NCBI RefSeq assembly: GCF_900455735.1
Contig: NZ_UAUI01000029.1
Location: 1 to 64,000 of the forward strand
Length of the DNA: 64,000 nt
Direction of reading: 5' to 3'
Origin: Rhodococcus wratislaviensis
GTDB taxonomy: Bacteria > Actinomycetota > Actinomycetes > Mycobacteriales > Mycobacteriaceae
The translations under genes and the position numbers were made by a program. The stretch's first letter is position 1. Every line of letters begins with the position of its first letter. Below the pieces are notes generated by a model that searched no databases, was not told the origin of the DNA, and saw nothing but the letters and a program-made list of their open reading frames with translations. Positions 9,702-16,673 of the stretch are shown one piece after another.

Positions 9702-11018
9702 TCAGGATGCTCGGGGCCGGGCCCGGTTGTGCGCCGGTATCGGTTTCCGTTCCCAGTCGACTTGCCGTGGTGGGATGAACGTGGGGTGCCGGTCGGCTCC
9801 CATTTCCATTTCCCAGTCACTGTGGTGGAGCAATCGGTGGTGGAATCCGCAGAGCAGTACCAGGTTGCCCATGTCGGATGGCCCACCTGCGGACCAGTGA
9901 ACGATGTGATGGCCTTCGCACCAGGACGGCGGCGCACCACACCCAGGGAACGCACACCCTCGATCTCTCGCCACCAACGCTTTTCGCTGCCGCTTGGTGA
10001 CCGTTCGGGTAGATACGCCCAGGTCGAGTGGTGCACCCTTGTCGTCGAGCACGATCGGCGTGTAGATCGAGTCGCAGCTGAGGAGCCGGGCTGCTGTGAG
10101 GCTCAGCGGCCCCATCCACTCGGTCCACGCCACTCCGTCGACGGCGAAAAGCGACTCGCCAGCGGCGGAGGCATCGCGCTGTTGTCGCGCGCTGCAGTCA
10201 GTGTGGTCGGCGAGATCCTTGACGTTCACGTGGAGTGAGACGTGCGGCCGTTCGCCGCCTTCTTCGCCGGCTATCCCGGAGTCGAGGTAGCGGCGAAGGA
10301 GTTCGGTCAACCCGTCGGCCCGTCGCCGTCCGGGCGTGCGGCCGTCCTTGGTCCCGTCCTGCGCGGGTCGCGGCTTGGACAGTCCGGAGAGCGCCGAGAG
10401 CAGCATTTCGCCGGTGACGGCGTCCAGGTCACCTTTGACGGCGACGCGTCCGTTGAGTGTCTTGGAGGCGTGGAACTCGTTGAGGTCCGTGTCTTCGCTG
10501 GGCGGCGGATCGTCGGATTCGAAGGCGCGTTCCAGCCTGGCGATGACGGCGCGCACCGCGTCCGTGTTGGCGGTGGGACCGGTTGCGGCGAACAGCAACG
10601 CATTTCGGCAGTCCTCCATCGCTTCGAGCGGCATGCCCTTGGGCGGCCTCTCGCAGAACTTCATGATGAGTGCCGCATGCTCCGCCGAAATGTTGGTGTC
10701 GAAGTACTCTTCCGCGATCTCCGGCTGCTGACGCAAACCTCGGCCCAACATCACGATTCGCCCCGCCGCACCCACCTCGAGCAGTGTCTTGGAGGCCAAC
10801 CACATCTTGGCGTTCGGAAATCCCAGCACATCGACCTTGCAGCGATGATCGACGGCACCGACGAGCCTGACCCGCAAGGCCTCGAGTCGCTGAATCTCCT
10901 CCGAGATACGAACGACCGAGTCGAGCAACTCGGCCTCGGCCAGACGCCACGCATCACCGACCGCGGTCGCCAGAATCTCGTCCGACAACGCCCCCTGGAT
11001 ATCCTCCCCGATCCCCAT
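9702..11018 (-). CDS. DUF222 protein with C-terminal HNH nuclease domain (13E12 repeat family)
   Basis: A 438-residue protein: an N-terminal helical DUF222 domain (about 20-290) and a C-terminal HNH motif visible as RDRGCAFPGCGAPPSWCEGHHIVHWSAGGPSD and NLVLLCGFHHRLLH, with two Cys pairs for zinc and the catalytic HH and H. This is the architecture of the 13E12 repeat family of mycobacteria and rhodococci, some members of which are known to belong to the DNA-damage regulon. Cellular role is unclear; a nuclease is inferred from the motif. The ISL3 element ends only 26 bp upstream of the ATG and cuts the likely promoter/SOS box. No strong ribosome-binding site is visible. Confidence 0.9.
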   Translation of the reverse strand: MGIGEDIQGALSDEILATAVGDAWRLAEAELLDSVVRISEEIQRLEALRVRLVGAVDHRCKVDVLGFPNAKMWLASKTLLEVGAAGRIVMLGRGLRQQPEIAEEYFDTNISAEHAALIMKFCERPPKGMPLEAMEDCRNALLFAATGPTANTDAVRAVIARLERAFESDDPPPSEDTDLNEFHASKTLNGRVAVKGDLDAVTGEMLLSALSGLSKPRPAQDGTKDGRTPGRRRADGLTELLRRYLDSGIAGEEGGERPHVSLHVNVKDLADHTDCSARQQRDASAAGESLFAVDGVAWTEWMGPLSLTAARLLSCDSIYTPIVLDDKGAPLDLGVSTRTVTKRQRKALVARDRGCAFPGCGAPPSWCEGHHIVHWSAGGPSDMGNLVLLCGFHHRLLHHSDWEMEMGADRHPTFIPPRQVDWERKPIPAHNRARPRAS

Positions 11019-11031
11019 ACACAGATCTTAG

Positions 11032-11044
11032 TTCGCACATATGT
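11032..11044. promoter_or_regulatory. Left half of an IS-interrupted LexA/SOS-box-like site
   Basis: Removing the element at 11045-12411 and one copy of its duplication restores TCGCACATATGTTCTA. This matches the mycobacterial SOS box TCGAAC-N4-GTTCGA at 14 of 16 positions against the form with ATAT in the centre. The restored site lies about 15-30 bp upstream of the DUF222 start. As it stands, the left junction keeps only TCGCAC of the box and the right half is element DNA. Confidence 0.55.
11037..11044. repeat. Target-site duplication, left copy
   Basis: ACATATGT abuts the left end of the insertion element and is repeated exactly at 12412-12419. Eight base pairs is the duplication length typical of the ISL3 family. 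The octamer is itself self-complementary. Confidence 0.8.
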
Positions 11045-12411
11045 GGCCGTCCTGACCCTTTGGTGGGCGATTAATGTTGTGGCAGAGCTGGGCACGCCCC
11101 TCCTCGTGTCAGTGTCGCCATCGCAATCAAGGCCTCTGGGCTGTGAAATCCGTAGGATCGCTTCGTCAGTGAACGCAGGTGGGTGTTGTTAGCCTCGACG
11201 CGAGCATTGGACAGGTCGTATTCGATTGCGTTGAGGATCTCGCGCCGGTAGCGAGCGATGCTCTTAGCCAGGCCTACAAGTTCCGGGATCCGACTGTCCT
11301 GGGCCATCTGCATCCATGCTCGCAGTCGTACGGAGGCTCTCTTCTTCGAGCCGGAATAGACATGTTGCAGTTGTTCTTTCATGACATAGCCTCGACACAG
11401 TTCGCTGTTTCTGTCCTCGAGGATCTTTGCTCGGACTGATATCTGCGCGGGGTTGAGATTCTCGACGTTCTTCAACAATGCCCACCGCAGGTGCCGTCGA
11501 TCCCGGTCGGTGAATCCCCATAGCCGCGACAACACACGCGAGCGCAGTCGGTCCAGAGCCCGCGTCATCCACTGAATCACATGAAACGGATCCATACACC
11601 GCTTCACCTGCGGCGCCCTGCTGCACACGGTCGAGGCGATCCACTTCGCAGCATCAGCACTGATATGCGTCAGACGAGCCGTGCGTTCTTCACCCAACTC
11701 GTCGAAGAATCGATTCAAGGTGCTCTCGTTGTGCCCTTCGGCTGCCCATACGAGTCGGCCTGTGTCGTGATCGACCACCACGGTGAGATACCGGTGACCT
11801 TTCCGGTAGGCGATTTCGTCGATCCCCAAGCGCCGCAATCCCTGGAGCCGATCAGTGCGTCCGACAGCGTCGCCGACGACGCGGGTGACGATCCTGGTCA
11901 CAGATCGCCACGCCACTCGGGCGTACTCGCACACCGAGGTAGCTGGACTGTGCGCGGCCAACCACGCCACGTTGTCGTCGAACGCCCTGGTCATGTTCGC
12001 GGCCGGCCGTGCCCACGGCACCATCTCGGTCACCACGCCGTGCTCGGGGCATCGAATCCTCGATACCGAAGCTTGTACGAAGCACCGTGTGCCGCCCATA
12101 TCCAGGTGACGCCACTGTCGAGATCGATTCGGGCGATCGTATCTAGGGCAGCGCTGTTTACAATGTGGACAGCGGGACCGCACCGACGCGTGCGACTCGA
12201 GGGTCACCACGATCACGGGCCCTCGTTCGTCGTCCGTGAATGCGACATCGATTACCCGGGCCCTGTCGATTCCCAGCAGTTTCTGCAGTATTCTGGCAGC
12301 GCGCAACGCCTTCTCCCTTAGGTCTTGTCTTCGCAAACCAAAACCTATGCGAGGGAGGGCGTTGCGTCTATCAGGCTCGCGGAGATCACCCATCAAAGGG
12401 TCAGAAGAGCC
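11045..12411 (-). mobile_element. ISL3-family insertion sequence, 1367 bp
   Basis: A complete element with 27-bp terminal inverted repeats at 11045-11071 and 12385-12411 (22 of 27 identical). The right end reads GGCTCTTCTGACCCTTTG inward and the left GGCCGTCCTGACCCTTTG. Ends beginning GGC and an 8-bp duplication fit the ISL3 family. It carries one intact transposase gene, so it may still be active. It lies between the DUF222 gene and its presumed operator. Confidence 0.9.
11071..12393 (-). CDS. ISL3-family transposase
   Basis: A DDE-type transposase of about 440 residues. The N-terminal zinc finger is CPHCKQRCPRY with a further CPEHG. The catalytic acids appear in GIDEIAYRKGHRY, HISADAAKWI and NARVEANNTHLR, matching the ISL3 DDE pattern, and MDPFHVIQW is a typical family block. 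The frame is open throughout with no frameshift, so the protein is probably functional. The stop lies at the inner edge of the left terminal repeat. ATG at 12393 is used; a TTG sits immediately before it. Confidence 0.93.
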   Translation of the reverse strand: MGDLREPDRRNALPRIGFGLRRQDLREKALRAARILQKLLGIDRARVIDVAFTDDERGPVIVVTLESHASVRSRCPHCKQRCPRYDRPNRSRQWRHLDMGGTRCFVQASVSRIRCPEHGVVTEMVPWARPAANMTRAFDDNVAWLAAHSPATSVCEYARVAWRSVTRIVTRVVGDAVGRTDRLQGLRRLGIDEIAYRKGHRYLTVVVDHDTGRLVWAAEGHNESTLNRFFDELGEERTARLTHISADAAKWIASTVCSRAPQVKRCMDPFHVIQWMTRALDRLRSRVLSRLWGFTDRDRRHLRWALLKNVENLNPAQISVRAKILEDRNSELCRGYVMKEQLQHVYSGSKKRASVRLRAWMQMAQDSRIPELVGLAKSIARYRREILNAIEYDLSNARVEANNTHLRSLTKRSYGFHSPEALIAMATLTRGGACPALPQH

Positions 12412-12419
12412 ACATATGT
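12412..12419. repeat. Target-site duplication, right copy
   Basis: ACATATGT directly follows the right terminal repeat and matches the left copy exactly. The bases beyond it (TCTAG) are the other half of the interrupted SOS-like box. Confidence 0.8.
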
Positions 12420-12615
12420 TCTAGTCAATGGTCCATTCGAACCACCGTCATCGGGTCGCCGATCAGGAGGGAGGCGCAGACCGCAACATCGCAGCCAACG
12501 ACCGAGTGTGCCTGCGCCACAGCCTTGCCGGGGCATGGTCCATCGCGCCACGTAGGTCCGCCCCGGTCCCAGATCGCGCGAGACGCACGAATTCGCAAGA
12601 GGGCCGGGAAACGGT

Positions 12616-13510: not shown

Positions 13511-16153
13511 CTATCCCCGCGCCATGTCGACGAACTTGGACAGGTGAAGCTGGTGCGCCACAGTGATTGTCGCGGTAGGCCCGTTACGGTGCTTGCCGAG
13601 GATGAGGTCGGCCTCGCCGCCGCGGGGGTCGTCGCGTTCCGTGGCGTCGGGGCGGTAGAGCAGGATCACCATGTCGGCGTCCTGCTCCAGCGATCCCGAC
13701 TCACGAAGGTCGGCGACCTGGGGGCGCTTGTCCTGCCGCTGCTCGGGACCACGGTTCAGCTGGCAGATCGCGACCACGGGAACCTCGAGTTCCTTCGCCA
13801 AAAGCTTGAGGCTACGGGAGAACTCGGAGACTTCCTGCTGACGTGACTCGACCTTCTTACCCGAGCTCATCAGCTGCAGGTAGTCGATCACGATCAGCTT
13901 GATGTCGTGTTTCTGCTTGAGCCGCCGGGCTTTTGCGCGGATCTCCATCATCGTGAGGTTGGGGGAGTCGTCGATGAACAGCGGCGCCTCACTGATCTCA
14001 CTCATACGTCGAGCGAGCTTCGTCCAGTCGTCGTCGGTCATCTTGCCGGAGCGCATGTCGCCGAGCTTGATCTTCGCCTCCGCCGACAGCAGACGCATGA
14101 CGATCTCGGTCTTGCTCATCTCGAGCGAGAACATGACGCTGGCCATACCGTGCTTCACGGAGCAGGAGCGCAGGAAGTCCATGCCGAGGGTGGAGTTGTG
14201 GGTCGGCACCATAGAACGGCCCGCGAGGTACAAATGGTCGGCGTTGTCGACTTCGACGCACCGCACGGGGACACTCTCGACCTTGCGTACGTCGGTGATG
14301 AAACGAGAACCCGAACGAACGGTAGCGCTGCTCGCGCGACGTTCCTTGTGGAGCAGAGCCTTCCGCGGAAGTCCGAAAACCTCGTCATCGGTTGCGAACG
14401 TAAGGGTGTAGGCAGTCGACGACGCCTCCGTACGACCGTGCACCTTCTTGGTGCTCATCTGGCAGCGGTAGCCGAGGCTGACGATCAGCTCCTGCGCGTC
14501 GCGCACCAAACGCTCACTCGTAACGGAGAACTGCACGGAGCCACCAGCCGTCACAGTGCCGTCCGTGTCCAGCAAACCGGCGAGCACCCAGCGGCGCTGC
14601 AGCTCAGATCCACGCAGGTACTGGATGGGAATGTGCTTGTTACCCAACACCCCGAGGGTCCGCAGTCGCGCCTGGAGAGTGCCCACCTCGTTTCGGCACC
14701 TCTGGCAGAGCCTCATGCCGATCGAAGGCCCGCCGCAATGTGCACAGGTTGGAGCCGGCACTGGATCCGACATGAAACGCGCCTTGCCACCGCAAGACTG
14801 CCCACAGGTACGCACCTGGCTCGTGAACGGCACGAAGGATTCGCCGCACACCACGCAGCCGCGGGCAGCGATCGGAGCTTCAGGCGCCAACTGCAAGCTG
14901 TATCGCAATTTCGCAGTCGTCGACGGAACCGCAACCAAACCTTCCGCCTCGATCAGCATGATGATCTCGGGGTCGGCGCACGTGATATGAGCAGCCGCCG
15001 AAGTGCCGTCACCGAGCCACGCTCCGAGCGTGTACGGAGGCACGAGCAGGTCCTGTGCAGGCAACTCGAGCGGTTTCGCATTGGTGACCGAATGATTCAC
15101 GCGCGAATCCGCGGTAGCGCAGCGAAGTGTGGCGGCGATTTCGGCTGTCGTACGCACCTCAGCGAACGTGCCCTGGTTCTTGTATCGGTTGTAGCCGGTG
15201 GCGGCCTGCTGCGCCGACCGCCGAGATGCCCGCGTCTCCGTCAACCACTGATGCTGCTCGTCGGCGACGAGGACGGTGCCGTCCGAGAATTCCACCTCGT
15301 AGCAGGGCCTGCCGACCATGACGTCGGTGGTGGCGACGACGCGGGTGGGCTTGCCGTCGGCGTCGATGAGGTGATCGCCGACCTGGACGTCACCCATAGT
15401 GGTCCAGCCGGTGGGCGTGGCGAGGGGAGTGTCGAGGGCGAGCGCCTTGCCCACACCGGGTCGGGCCGCGACGATGATCATCTGGCCCGGGTGGAGGCCA
15501 TTGGTGATCTCGTCGAGTTCGACGAAGCCGGTGGGCACACCGAGGGAGATGCCGCCGCGGCTGGCGATGGAGTCGATCTCGTCCATCGTGGGCTGCAGGA
15601 GCTCTTCGAGGGGGACGAAGTCTTCGGTGGTGCGGCGTTCGGTGACCTCGAAGATCTCGGCCTGCGCGCGGTCGACGACCTCGGCGACGTCCTGACCGTC
15701 GGCGCCGGTGTAGCCGTACTGGACGATGCGGGTGCCGGCGTCGACGAGGCGACGGAGGATGGCCTTCTCCGCCACGATCTCGGCGTAGTAGCCGGCGTTG
15801 GCGGCGGTGGGCACGGTCTGGGTGAGCGTCACCAGATACGGCGCTCCGCCGATGCGTCGGAGCTCGCCACGACGATCCAGCTCCGCGGACACCGTCACCG
15901 GGTCGGCGGGCTCACCGCGGCTGTAGAGGTCCAGGATCACGTCGTACACCGACTGATGCGCGGGACGGTAGAAGTCGCCGGGACGGAGCACCTCGAGCAC
16001 GTCCGCGATGGCGTCCTTGCTGAGGAGCATGCCGCCGAGGACCGACTGCTCCGCCGCCATGTCCTGAGGTGGCTGCCGGCCGAACTCTTCGCCGGGCTCC
16101 GCGTCAGGCGGACCCGGGTATTCGGAACGGCCCCGATCGTCTACTACAGCCAC
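13511..16153 (-). CDS. dnaB: Replicative DNA helicase DnaB, intein-containing precursor
   Basis: Hexameric 5'-3' helicase at the replication fork. The N-extein has the DnaB N-terminal domain (QPPQDMAAEQSVLGGMLLSKDAI) and the start of the RecA-like core ending ARPGVGK, the P-loop. A 417-residue intein interrupts the P-loop between K and S of GKST. The C-extein resumes STLGMDFLRS, with MFSLEMSKTEIVMR, LIVIDYLQLM (Walker B) and DLRESGSLEQDADMV. GTG at 16153 is chosen for GGGGAAGG seven or so bases upstream and because homologues start VAVVDDRG; a longer frame begins at 16246. Excision would leave about 463 residues, normal for DnaB. M. tuberculosis DnaB also carries an intein. It lies in the usual order after rplI. 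Confidence 0.95.
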   Translation of the reverse strand: MAVVDDRGRSEYPGPPDAEPGEEFGRQPPQDMAAEQSVLGGMLLSKDAIADVLEVLRPGDFYRPAHQSVYDVILDLYSRGEPADPVTVSAELDRRGELRRIGGAPYLVTLTQTVPTAANAGYYAEIVAEKAILRRLVDAGTRIVQYGYTGADGQDVAEVVDRAQAEIFEVTERRTTEDFVPLEELLQPTMDEIDSIASRGGISLGVPTGFVELDEITNGLHPGQMIIVAARPGVGKALALDTPLATPTGWTTMGDVQVGDHLIDADGKPTRVVATTDVMVGRPCYEVEFSDGTVLVADEQHQWLTETRASRRSAQQAATGYNRYKNQGTFAEVRTTAEIAATLRCATADSRVNHSVTNAKPLELPAQDLLVPPYTLGAWLGDGTSAAAHITCADPEIIMLIEAEGLVAVPSTTAKLRYSLQLAPEAPIAARGCVVCGESFVPFTSQVRTCGQSCGGKARFMSDPVPAPTCAHCGGPSIGMRLCQRCRNEVGTLQARLRTLGVLGNKHIPIQYLRGSELQRRWVLAGLLDTDGTVTAGGSVQFSVTSERLVRDAQELIVSLGYRCQMSTKKVHGRTEASSTAYTLTFATDDEVFGLPRKALLHKERRASSATVRSGSRFITDVRKVESVPVRCVEVDNADHLYLAGRSMVPTHNSTLGMDFLRSCSVKHGMASVMFSLEMSKTEIVMRLLSAEAKIKLGDMRSGKMTDDDWTKLARRMSEISEAPLFIDDSPNLTMMEIRAKARRLKQKHDIKLIVIDYLQLMSSGKKVESRQQEVSEFSRSLKLLAKELEVPVVAICQLNRGPEQRQDKRPQVADLRESGSLEQDADMVILLYRPDATERDDPRGGEADLILGKHRNGPTATITVAHQLHLSKFVDMARG
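14195..15445 (-). other. Class 3 intein with LAGLIDADG homing-endonuclease domain inside dnaB
   Basis: The intein runs from Ala (ALALDTPLATPTGW) to the terminal His-Asn of PTHN, followed by Ser of the C-extein. It lacks an N-terminal Cys/Ser nucleophile. It has the three class 3 marks: Trp in block B (EQHQWLT), Cys at block F position 4 (VRCVEVDNADHLYLAG) and Thr just before His-Asn in block G (PTHN). The endonuclease has LGAWLGDG (block C) and WVLAGLLDTDG (block E). Between these blocks sit two cysteine clusters, CVVCGESF with CGQSC, and CAHC with CQRC, likely zinc-binding. All splicing and endonuclease motifs look intact. Confidence 0.9.
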
Positions 16154-16673
16154 TCGACCGACCTTCCCCATCACTGTTGCGCCACCCCGGAAAATGCTTC
16201 CCGGTGTTGGTGCCCCGAAACTCTTTGTACTCGCCCCTACCGACAACCTTCGCAGGCTCTTCGCGGCAGCCGGCGTCGTGATCGCGAGACACGCCGGGAC
16301 GACGTTAGGGATTAGCTACCCGGTGTTCAAACCGGCCTGTGTACACAGTTGGGGACGAATTGTGGAAACTGCTGGGTACGTTTGTTAACCCCATGGGGAT
16401 AACCTGAGGATAAGTGCATATCACAATCCCAAAGACCCAGATCAGAGCCGTTTTTTGGTTTCTCACCACTGTGGATGAAAACCCGTTCGGCGTGTCTTTC
16501 GCGTTGACGACTCGGGCGTGTTGAGTTGGTCGCCCCTGCGTGGCAATATGATCCACCTCACAGATCGTCGGCGGGGCGGCTAACTTCCAGACACAGCTGG
16601 AAGCCGCTCCTCTGCGTGCTTCAGACCGCTGAAAACGGGCTCGAGAGGGCGGCTGTGGGCCGGAATCGACAAG
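16154..16673. other. dnaB upstream region, no gene
   Basis: About 520 bp between the dnaB start and the rplI terminator. It holds a 12-bp perfect palindrome CTGTGTACACAG at 16337-16348, a near-perfect 20-bp palindrome at 16384-16403 (arms GTTAACCCCA / TGGGGATAAC, one mismatch) and a run of DnaA-box-like nonamers. No convincing coding frame was found; M. tuberculosis has an extra gene (Rv0057) in this position that is missing here. Confidence 0.5.
16361..16478 (+). promoter_or_regulatory. Cluster of DnaA-box-like nonamers upstream of dnaB
   Basis: Against TGTGGATAA, TGGGGATAA (16394), TGAGGATAA (16405) and TGTGGATGA (16470) each have one mismatch, and TGTGGAAAC (16361) has two. All have the same orientation within 118 bp. 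One-mismatch matches occur by chance, but four in this space next to a replication gene is suggestive only. Confidence 0.3.

Follow-up and report, generated by a model that had tools for sequence, protein, structure and literature searches.

An ISL3 insertion sequence lineage of the Mycobacteriaceae that appears to choose SOS boxes as landing sites

We describe a lineage of insertion sequences that appears to choose SOS boxes as its landing sites. As judged from sequence comparison, the element is a member of a Mycobacteriaceae lineage within ISL3 whose preferred target is probably the dyad of the LexA operator (TCGAAC-N4-GTTCGA), mostly that of 13E12-type genes. The copy at the centre of this analysis lies in a 64,000-nucleotide stretch of Rhodococcus wratislaviensis DNA, hereafter the window, where it interrupts such a box in front of a gene with DUF222 and HNH domains. 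The original prediction described this one insertion; what it missed is that the event looks like repeated target choice by a lineage, not a single accident. The usual view is that insertion sequences for the most part choose their sites loosely, and an operator-addressed lineage would clearly exemplify mobile DNA that reads the regulatory code of its host.

An ISL3 element in front of a 13E12-type gene

The gene in the window carries both a DUF222 and a C-terminal HNH domain by Pfam, and is thus of the 13E12 / DUF222-HNH type; the transposase of the element upstream reads in the same direction as the gene, on the minus strand (Table 1). Like other ISL3 elements, such as ISCg1 of Corynebacterium glutamicum, the element encodes a DDE_Tnp_ISL3 transposase with a zinc ribbon and an HTH, is about 1.3-1.4 kb long, and has short, imperfect terminal inverted repeats (here 13 of 16 end bases match) and an 8-bp duplication. 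The direct repeats around the window element, ACATATGT, are identical at 8/8 bases, and this perfect duplication together with the intact open frame suggests that the insertion is a recent event. Close copies of the element occur in Rhodococcus records.

Table 1. Features at the insertion site, in window coordinates.
Feature	Position	Strand	Basis
DUF222/HNH (13E12-type) gene, 438 aa, open frame intact	9702..11018	-	Pfam DUF222 1.3e-28, HNH 7.2e-6
-10-like TAAGAT, 7 bp upstream of ATG	11025..11030	-	arrangement recurs in homologues
Split SOS box, gene-proximal part: TCGC + duplication (plus-strand reading)	11033..11044	.	orthologue boxes at -30
Target-site duplication copy 1, ACATATGT (SOS box positions 5-12)	11037..11044	.
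ISL3-family insertion sequence, 1367 bp	11045..12411	-	8-bp duplications and terminal inverted repeats
ISL3 transposase, 441 aa	11071..12396	-	Pfam DDE_Tnp_ISL3 (PF01610) 1.6e-60, HTH_Tnp_ISL3, Zn_ribbon_ISL3 (PF13542, PF14690)
Conserved hairpin, start of transposase frame	12300..12366	-	fold and sister-element similarity
Target-site duplication copy 2, ACATATGT	12412..12419	.
Split SOS box, distal part: duplication + TCTA	12412..12423	.
-35-like TTGACT, native promoter, cut off by element	12423..12428	-	arrangement common to most homologues

When the flanks are joined with a single repeat they read TCGCACATATGTTCTA, that is, TCGC-ACATATGT-TCTA, and this palindrome lies 15-30 bp before the ATG of the DUF222/HNH gene. 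The duplications, the Pfam matches and the rejoined flanks confirm that an ISL3 element splits an SOS-box-like palindrome before this gene; the reconstructed sequence lies where it was originally placed, and the target octamer is indeed the operator core, box positions 5-12. The match to the SOS box also stands, but the figure first given for it, 14/16 identical, counts the four Ns, and the rejoined box is an imperfect one that agrees with TCGAAC-N4-GTTCGA at 10/12 specified positions. The window holds 14 other sites with two mismatches, so a score of 10/12 is not rare on its own. The LexA of Mycobacterium tuberculosis binds imperfect boxes with close affinity, according to the part of PMC8607333 consulted.

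The palindrome as the SOS box of a gene family

Of 28 genomes of the genus, 24 contain a homologue of the DUF222 gene at E <= 1e-100 among the matches listed. We examined 29 of the 30 listed loci, with one partial match (L151) dropped; more matches exist. Among the matches listed, 27 of the 28 homologue loci other than the window's, which are all of the uninterrupted ones, carry an SOS box of 11-12/12, and in the 10 closest homologues the box stands exactly at -30 from the ATG. One of these 10 (L153) is a paralogue within the window's own genome, where an 11/12 box precedes 9/9 DUF222 genes that lack the element, a count that includes one gene (L013) with a poorly placed start codon. The layout TTGAC-box-NNTANNNT (TTGAC-box-TANNNT) recurs in most of the examined homologues. 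The claim that the palindrome is the SOS box of the gene is borne out by these homologues, and a search for an empty-site homologue without the palindrome turned up none: 27 of 28 have the box, and in the 28th it is interrupted at the same spot.

In this 28th locus (L132, in genome G017) the interruption, at the upstream end of the locus, leaves ATGTTTGTTCGA, and the interrupting DNA resembles the 3' end of a transposase of another kind. It may be an ISXO2/IS1595-like transposase end; a Pfam search of the interrupting DNA gave no hit.

SOS control of DUF222/HNH genes, as predicted from their promoters, is nearly universal in the loci examined. The window gene has the same domains and the same kind of SOS-box promoter as other 13E12 / DUF222-HNH genes, and is unlike them in having its promoter split by an element. 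M. tuberculosis encodes ten 13E12-family HNH genes, some of them discussed as LexA targets in the text seen of PMC4181829. The proposed targeting also draws attention to DUF222/HNH genes in their own right.

A second copy in the same genome

The element is present in two copies in this 7.78-Mb genome. The second, 150 kb from the first and different from it by 1 base in 1367, is inserted 28 bp before another DUF222-type gene in identical register: its duplication, AACTGTGT, forms positions 5-12 of TCGAAACTGTGTTCGA, a box of 11/12. The gene concerned is a diverged member of the family. It scored 36.7 bits to DUF222 in one search, while hmmscan of this gene gave no DUF222 hit and HNH only below threshold (E 0.015); an HMM built from DUF222 genes matches it, and is not independent because the training set includes that gene. 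The closest promoter relatives of the second-copy gene (L009-L011) share its layout.

SOS-type insertions form one transposase clade

Sister elements were sought by DNA search in 28 genomes of the genus and by transposase searches in 401 genomes of the family, 397 of the order and genera with 59, 9 and 297 genomes, with further searches of plasmids, one genome collection, phages and viral contigs. The genome collection yielded 7 loci, two of which (L027 and L028) repeat known copies; phage sequences gave only distant transposase relatives, at <60% identity, and a search of the viral contigs with both transposases gave no relatives. After removal of 8 duplicates, 81 distinct loci were examined; in 65 of them both ends are clear and the duplication matches at 7-8 bases. 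The 16 without a clean two-ended element include the clade or near-clade loci L039, L043, L048 and L053. Three of these were left out of the counts: L048 (degenerate ends, with DUF222 in the flank), L053 (3' end cut short, with no clean box on the left side) and L043 (54%, with neither box nor duplication seen).

In a transposase tree of 54 distinct rows, the SOS-type copies fall in one clade with support of 100/100, made up of 13 SOS copies, 1 that is not and 2 unscored. At 13 of the 14 two-ended clade insertions, the duplication (positions 5-12) is centred on an SOS-like box of 9-11/12, and 12 of the 14 score at least 10/12. Among 102,572 background 16-mers, 1.1e-3 (0.11%) score at least 9 and 1.95e-4 at least 10, and we reject a chance match to the SOS box on the contrast between this last rate and the clade sites. 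The binomial values for the clade, 5.5e-38 and 2.8e-43, assume independent copies and are hence overstated, copies within one genome not being fully independent. The 51 insertions outside the clade score 0-6/12, with the ends of some non-clade elements possibly mis-set (e.g., L080, L094, L109). The exception within the clade, L042, scores 6/12, and L052 in the same genome scores 9/12. For the window itself, chance is excluded because 27 of the 28 other homologue loci have a box of 11-12/12, at -30 in the 10 closest, the second copy sits in register and sister elements show the same elsewhere.

Two loci outside the 14 fit the pattern as well. L039, whose imperfect duplication was placed by hand, reads TCGA-ACATCCAT / AAATCCCAT-TCGA, and L017, of which only one end is present, reads TTGAC-TCGAACAGGTGT at that end, which lies behind a 16-base stretch common to the DUF222 promoter of L153. 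The symmetrised insertion profile of 14 sites (the 13 plus L039) is TCGAAC-AYRT-GTTCGA, in which G3, A5, T12 and C14 hardly vary; it is similar to the profile of 35 natural DUF222 boxes and agrees both with the mycobacterial SOS box and with the extended M. tuberculosis LexA motif, MKWMTCGAAMRYWTGTTCGA, given in the portion read of PMC4181829. Unlike an ordinary LexA operator, the box here, a predicted LexA site, is an insertion target.

That an ordinary AT-rich 8-bp preference of ISL3 elements met the SOS box by chance is barely credible. It is true that ACATATGT is AT-rich and that ISCg1, by the part of PMC8715038 consulted, inserts nearly anywhere, with the central 4 bp alone biased towards AT across 3,207 sites. 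Unlike ISCg1, however, the window clade is centred on SOS boxes, which is why we reject a general ISL3 preference; the clade also conserves the TCGA that flanks the duplication on the outside, several of its duplications are rich in GC (ACGCGAGT, ACTGACCT, ATCCGTCT), and the high box scores of 12/14 sites likewise speak against it.

Gene context and the excess of DUF222 promoters

Of the 14 two-ended clade sites, 9 adjoin a DUF222 gene, as against 1/51 non-clade insertions with such a gene in the flank; Pfam confirms DUF222 at eight loci (L037, L050, L056, L038, L051, L040, L041 and L039) and misses it at L049. One could suppose that insertion is random and that insertions in dispensable DUF222 promoters remain while most others are lost. 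DUF222 genes are multi-copy and probably dispensable, and L132 has the same box interrupted by a different element, which would suit this account. Yet survival does not set the register, and the duplication is dyad-centred in 13/14 clade sites, non-DUF222 ones included; the near absence of DUF222 beside non-clade relatives from the same searches also argues against it. We therefore consider random insertion followed by survival improbable.

The SOS-like clade sites outside DUF222 promoters are L035, L036, L026 and L052. L035 is inserted inside a dienelactone-hydrolase-type gene and L026 in the reading frame of a group II intron, on a plasmid of Rhodococcus sp. WAY2; gene context is less clear for L036 and L052, as for L042. 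Since at least L035 and L026 lie inside reading frames, operator context is not required. These four sites, like the low scores of L042 and L052, count against the operator dyad as the preferred target.

Element orientation relative to the gene is evenly divided over the 10 DUF222 sites including L039 (5 with, 5 against), and in one genome (G395) two paralogous DUF222 loci with the same box, L037 and L050, hold the element in opposite orientations. Copying of one DUF222-promoter insertion to other DUF222 loci by gene conversion would draw on just such paralogy and shared boxes, but the duplications differ between most sites, the orientations differ even at this pair, and in the window's genome the two target genes show weak similarity, 29% over 75 aa. 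On the differing orientations and weakly alike genes we reject gene conversion, which is very improbable. As a separate observation, the DUF222 gene adjoining L050 (1-1682, minus strand) has its matches spread over two frames, and it may be broken.

Among the sites of the window's genome that score 11+/12, 9/98 are DUF222 boxes; a backwards-read control gave 6 and 9 sites against 98 and 57, although its composition differs and the control is weak. DUF222 promoters account for 5/6 of the two-ended hits at exactly 10/12 and for 4/6 of those at 11/12. Sequence recognition alone does not explain this excess, to which survival or LexA occupancy must contribute; it could also arise if insertions elsewhere are removed by purifying selection. 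The interruption of a DUF222 box by a different element in L132 favours a hot-spot component.

How the target may be recognised

The excess keeps alive the idea that the transposase follows operator-bound LexA, so that its targets are the places that LexA occupies: DUF222 boxes are over-represented among the hits relative to equally good sequence matches. M. tuberculosis 13E12 HNH genes are among the LexA targets named in PMC4181829, and the text seen of PMC8151990, which quotes 25 functional SOS boxes in M. tuberculosis, describes five putative HNH endonucleases there as RecA-dependently induced. On the other side, the cuts fall inside the LexA-contacted half-sites, so bound LexA should hinder access; some of the hits are 10/12 boxes inside reading frames; and the palindromes hit by sister lineages are not SOS boxes. 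Guidance by LexA is in our judgement rather unlikely, albeit a serious alternative.

These sister lineages are of two kinds. In family f15, 17 sister ISL3 insertions in five genomes (L087-L091, L095-L099, L102-L106, L110 and L111) occupy the ATAWWWAT-type centres of long, nearly perfect palindromes such as GATATGCCTCAGAGGCATAAATATGCCTCTGAGGCATATC, with a 12-bp arm agreement of at least 7 in 16/17; a search of 4 genomes turned up only 2 near-matches of the palindrome without an insertion. Another sister lineage has three copies in genome G108 (L046, L055 and L058), which lie in terminator-like inverted repeats, as judged by eye.

We prefer direct recognition, given that the half-sites of LexA are themselves cut and that the sister lineages strike the centres of palindromes of other kinds. 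The transposase itself would recognise the palindrome, as its sister lineages seem to do with theirs. The sequences show an 8-bp staggered cut at positions 5-12 that splits the box centrally, with the element in either orientation. The element is found most often in the boxes of DUF222/HNH genes, which are numerous and nearly always box-bearing, as well as presumably dispensable.

Consequences for the interrupted gene

Once the flanks are joined, the SOS box lies in the spacer of TTGACT-17 nt-TAAGAT; after insertion, these -35 and -10 elements are 1.4 kb apart. The hybrid 16-mers at the two junctions retain 7/12 SOS positions each, and a sigma-70-type promoter scan of 10980-12520 gave 0 sites (shuffle mean 0.4). 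The insertion would thus destroy the operator and part the -35 from the -10, leaving the window gene without its operator and most likely without its promoter. Of the two outcomes first proposed, the uncoupling of the gene from LexA is plausible because each junction hybrid retains so few positions, with LexA control at this site itself a prediction, whereas a promoter supplied by the element is rejected on the empty scan. Since the -35 and -10 are separated, silencing is no less likely than de-repression: the gene would escape LexA control but probably be silent until new sequence brings a promoter. The window's genome does encode lexA, with three 11+/12 boxes just upstream of lexA itself.

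SOS boxes as an address

IS30 is known for a preference for palindromic targets that it cuts at the centre; the clade resembles it in target and central cut and differs from it in transposase family. To our knowledge, no palindrome-targeting insertion sequence has had as its palindrome the operator of a named repressor. A literature search on SOS-box or operator targeting by insertion sequences and on ISL3 targets, with subscription papers thinly covered, found no report; the targeting of SOS boxes by an ISL3 lineage, as proposed here, thus has no earlier report that we found, while ISL3 elements, the SOS box and 13E12 genes are each already known.

More tentatively, and with a likelihood somewhat short of even, transposition may be wired to DNA damage, with the transposase competing with LexA or being steered by it and with the 13E12 family as a safe harbour. 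In the competition version, transposase and LexA would contend for the same operator, and sites would open on LexA cleavage. If this is true, an insertion sequence has evolved to use a repressor's operator as its address and a gene family as its harbour. An IS lineage with an SOS-box address would let SOS regulons evolve through insertion and would offer a sequence-defined system for dissecting target choice by DDE transposases; with sister lineages that strike palindromes of other kinds, domain swaps should be able to map what determines the specificity.

Other features of the element and window

The hairpin at the start of the transposase frame folds at -37 kcal/mol with a z of -5.0 (fold over 12297-12375, minus strand), and a sequence resembling it is found in sister elements; it possibly serves translational control of the transposase. 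Elsewhere in the window, a DnaB helicase of 911 aa (13511-16246, minus strand) has an internal LAGLIDADG_3 match and probably bears an intein.
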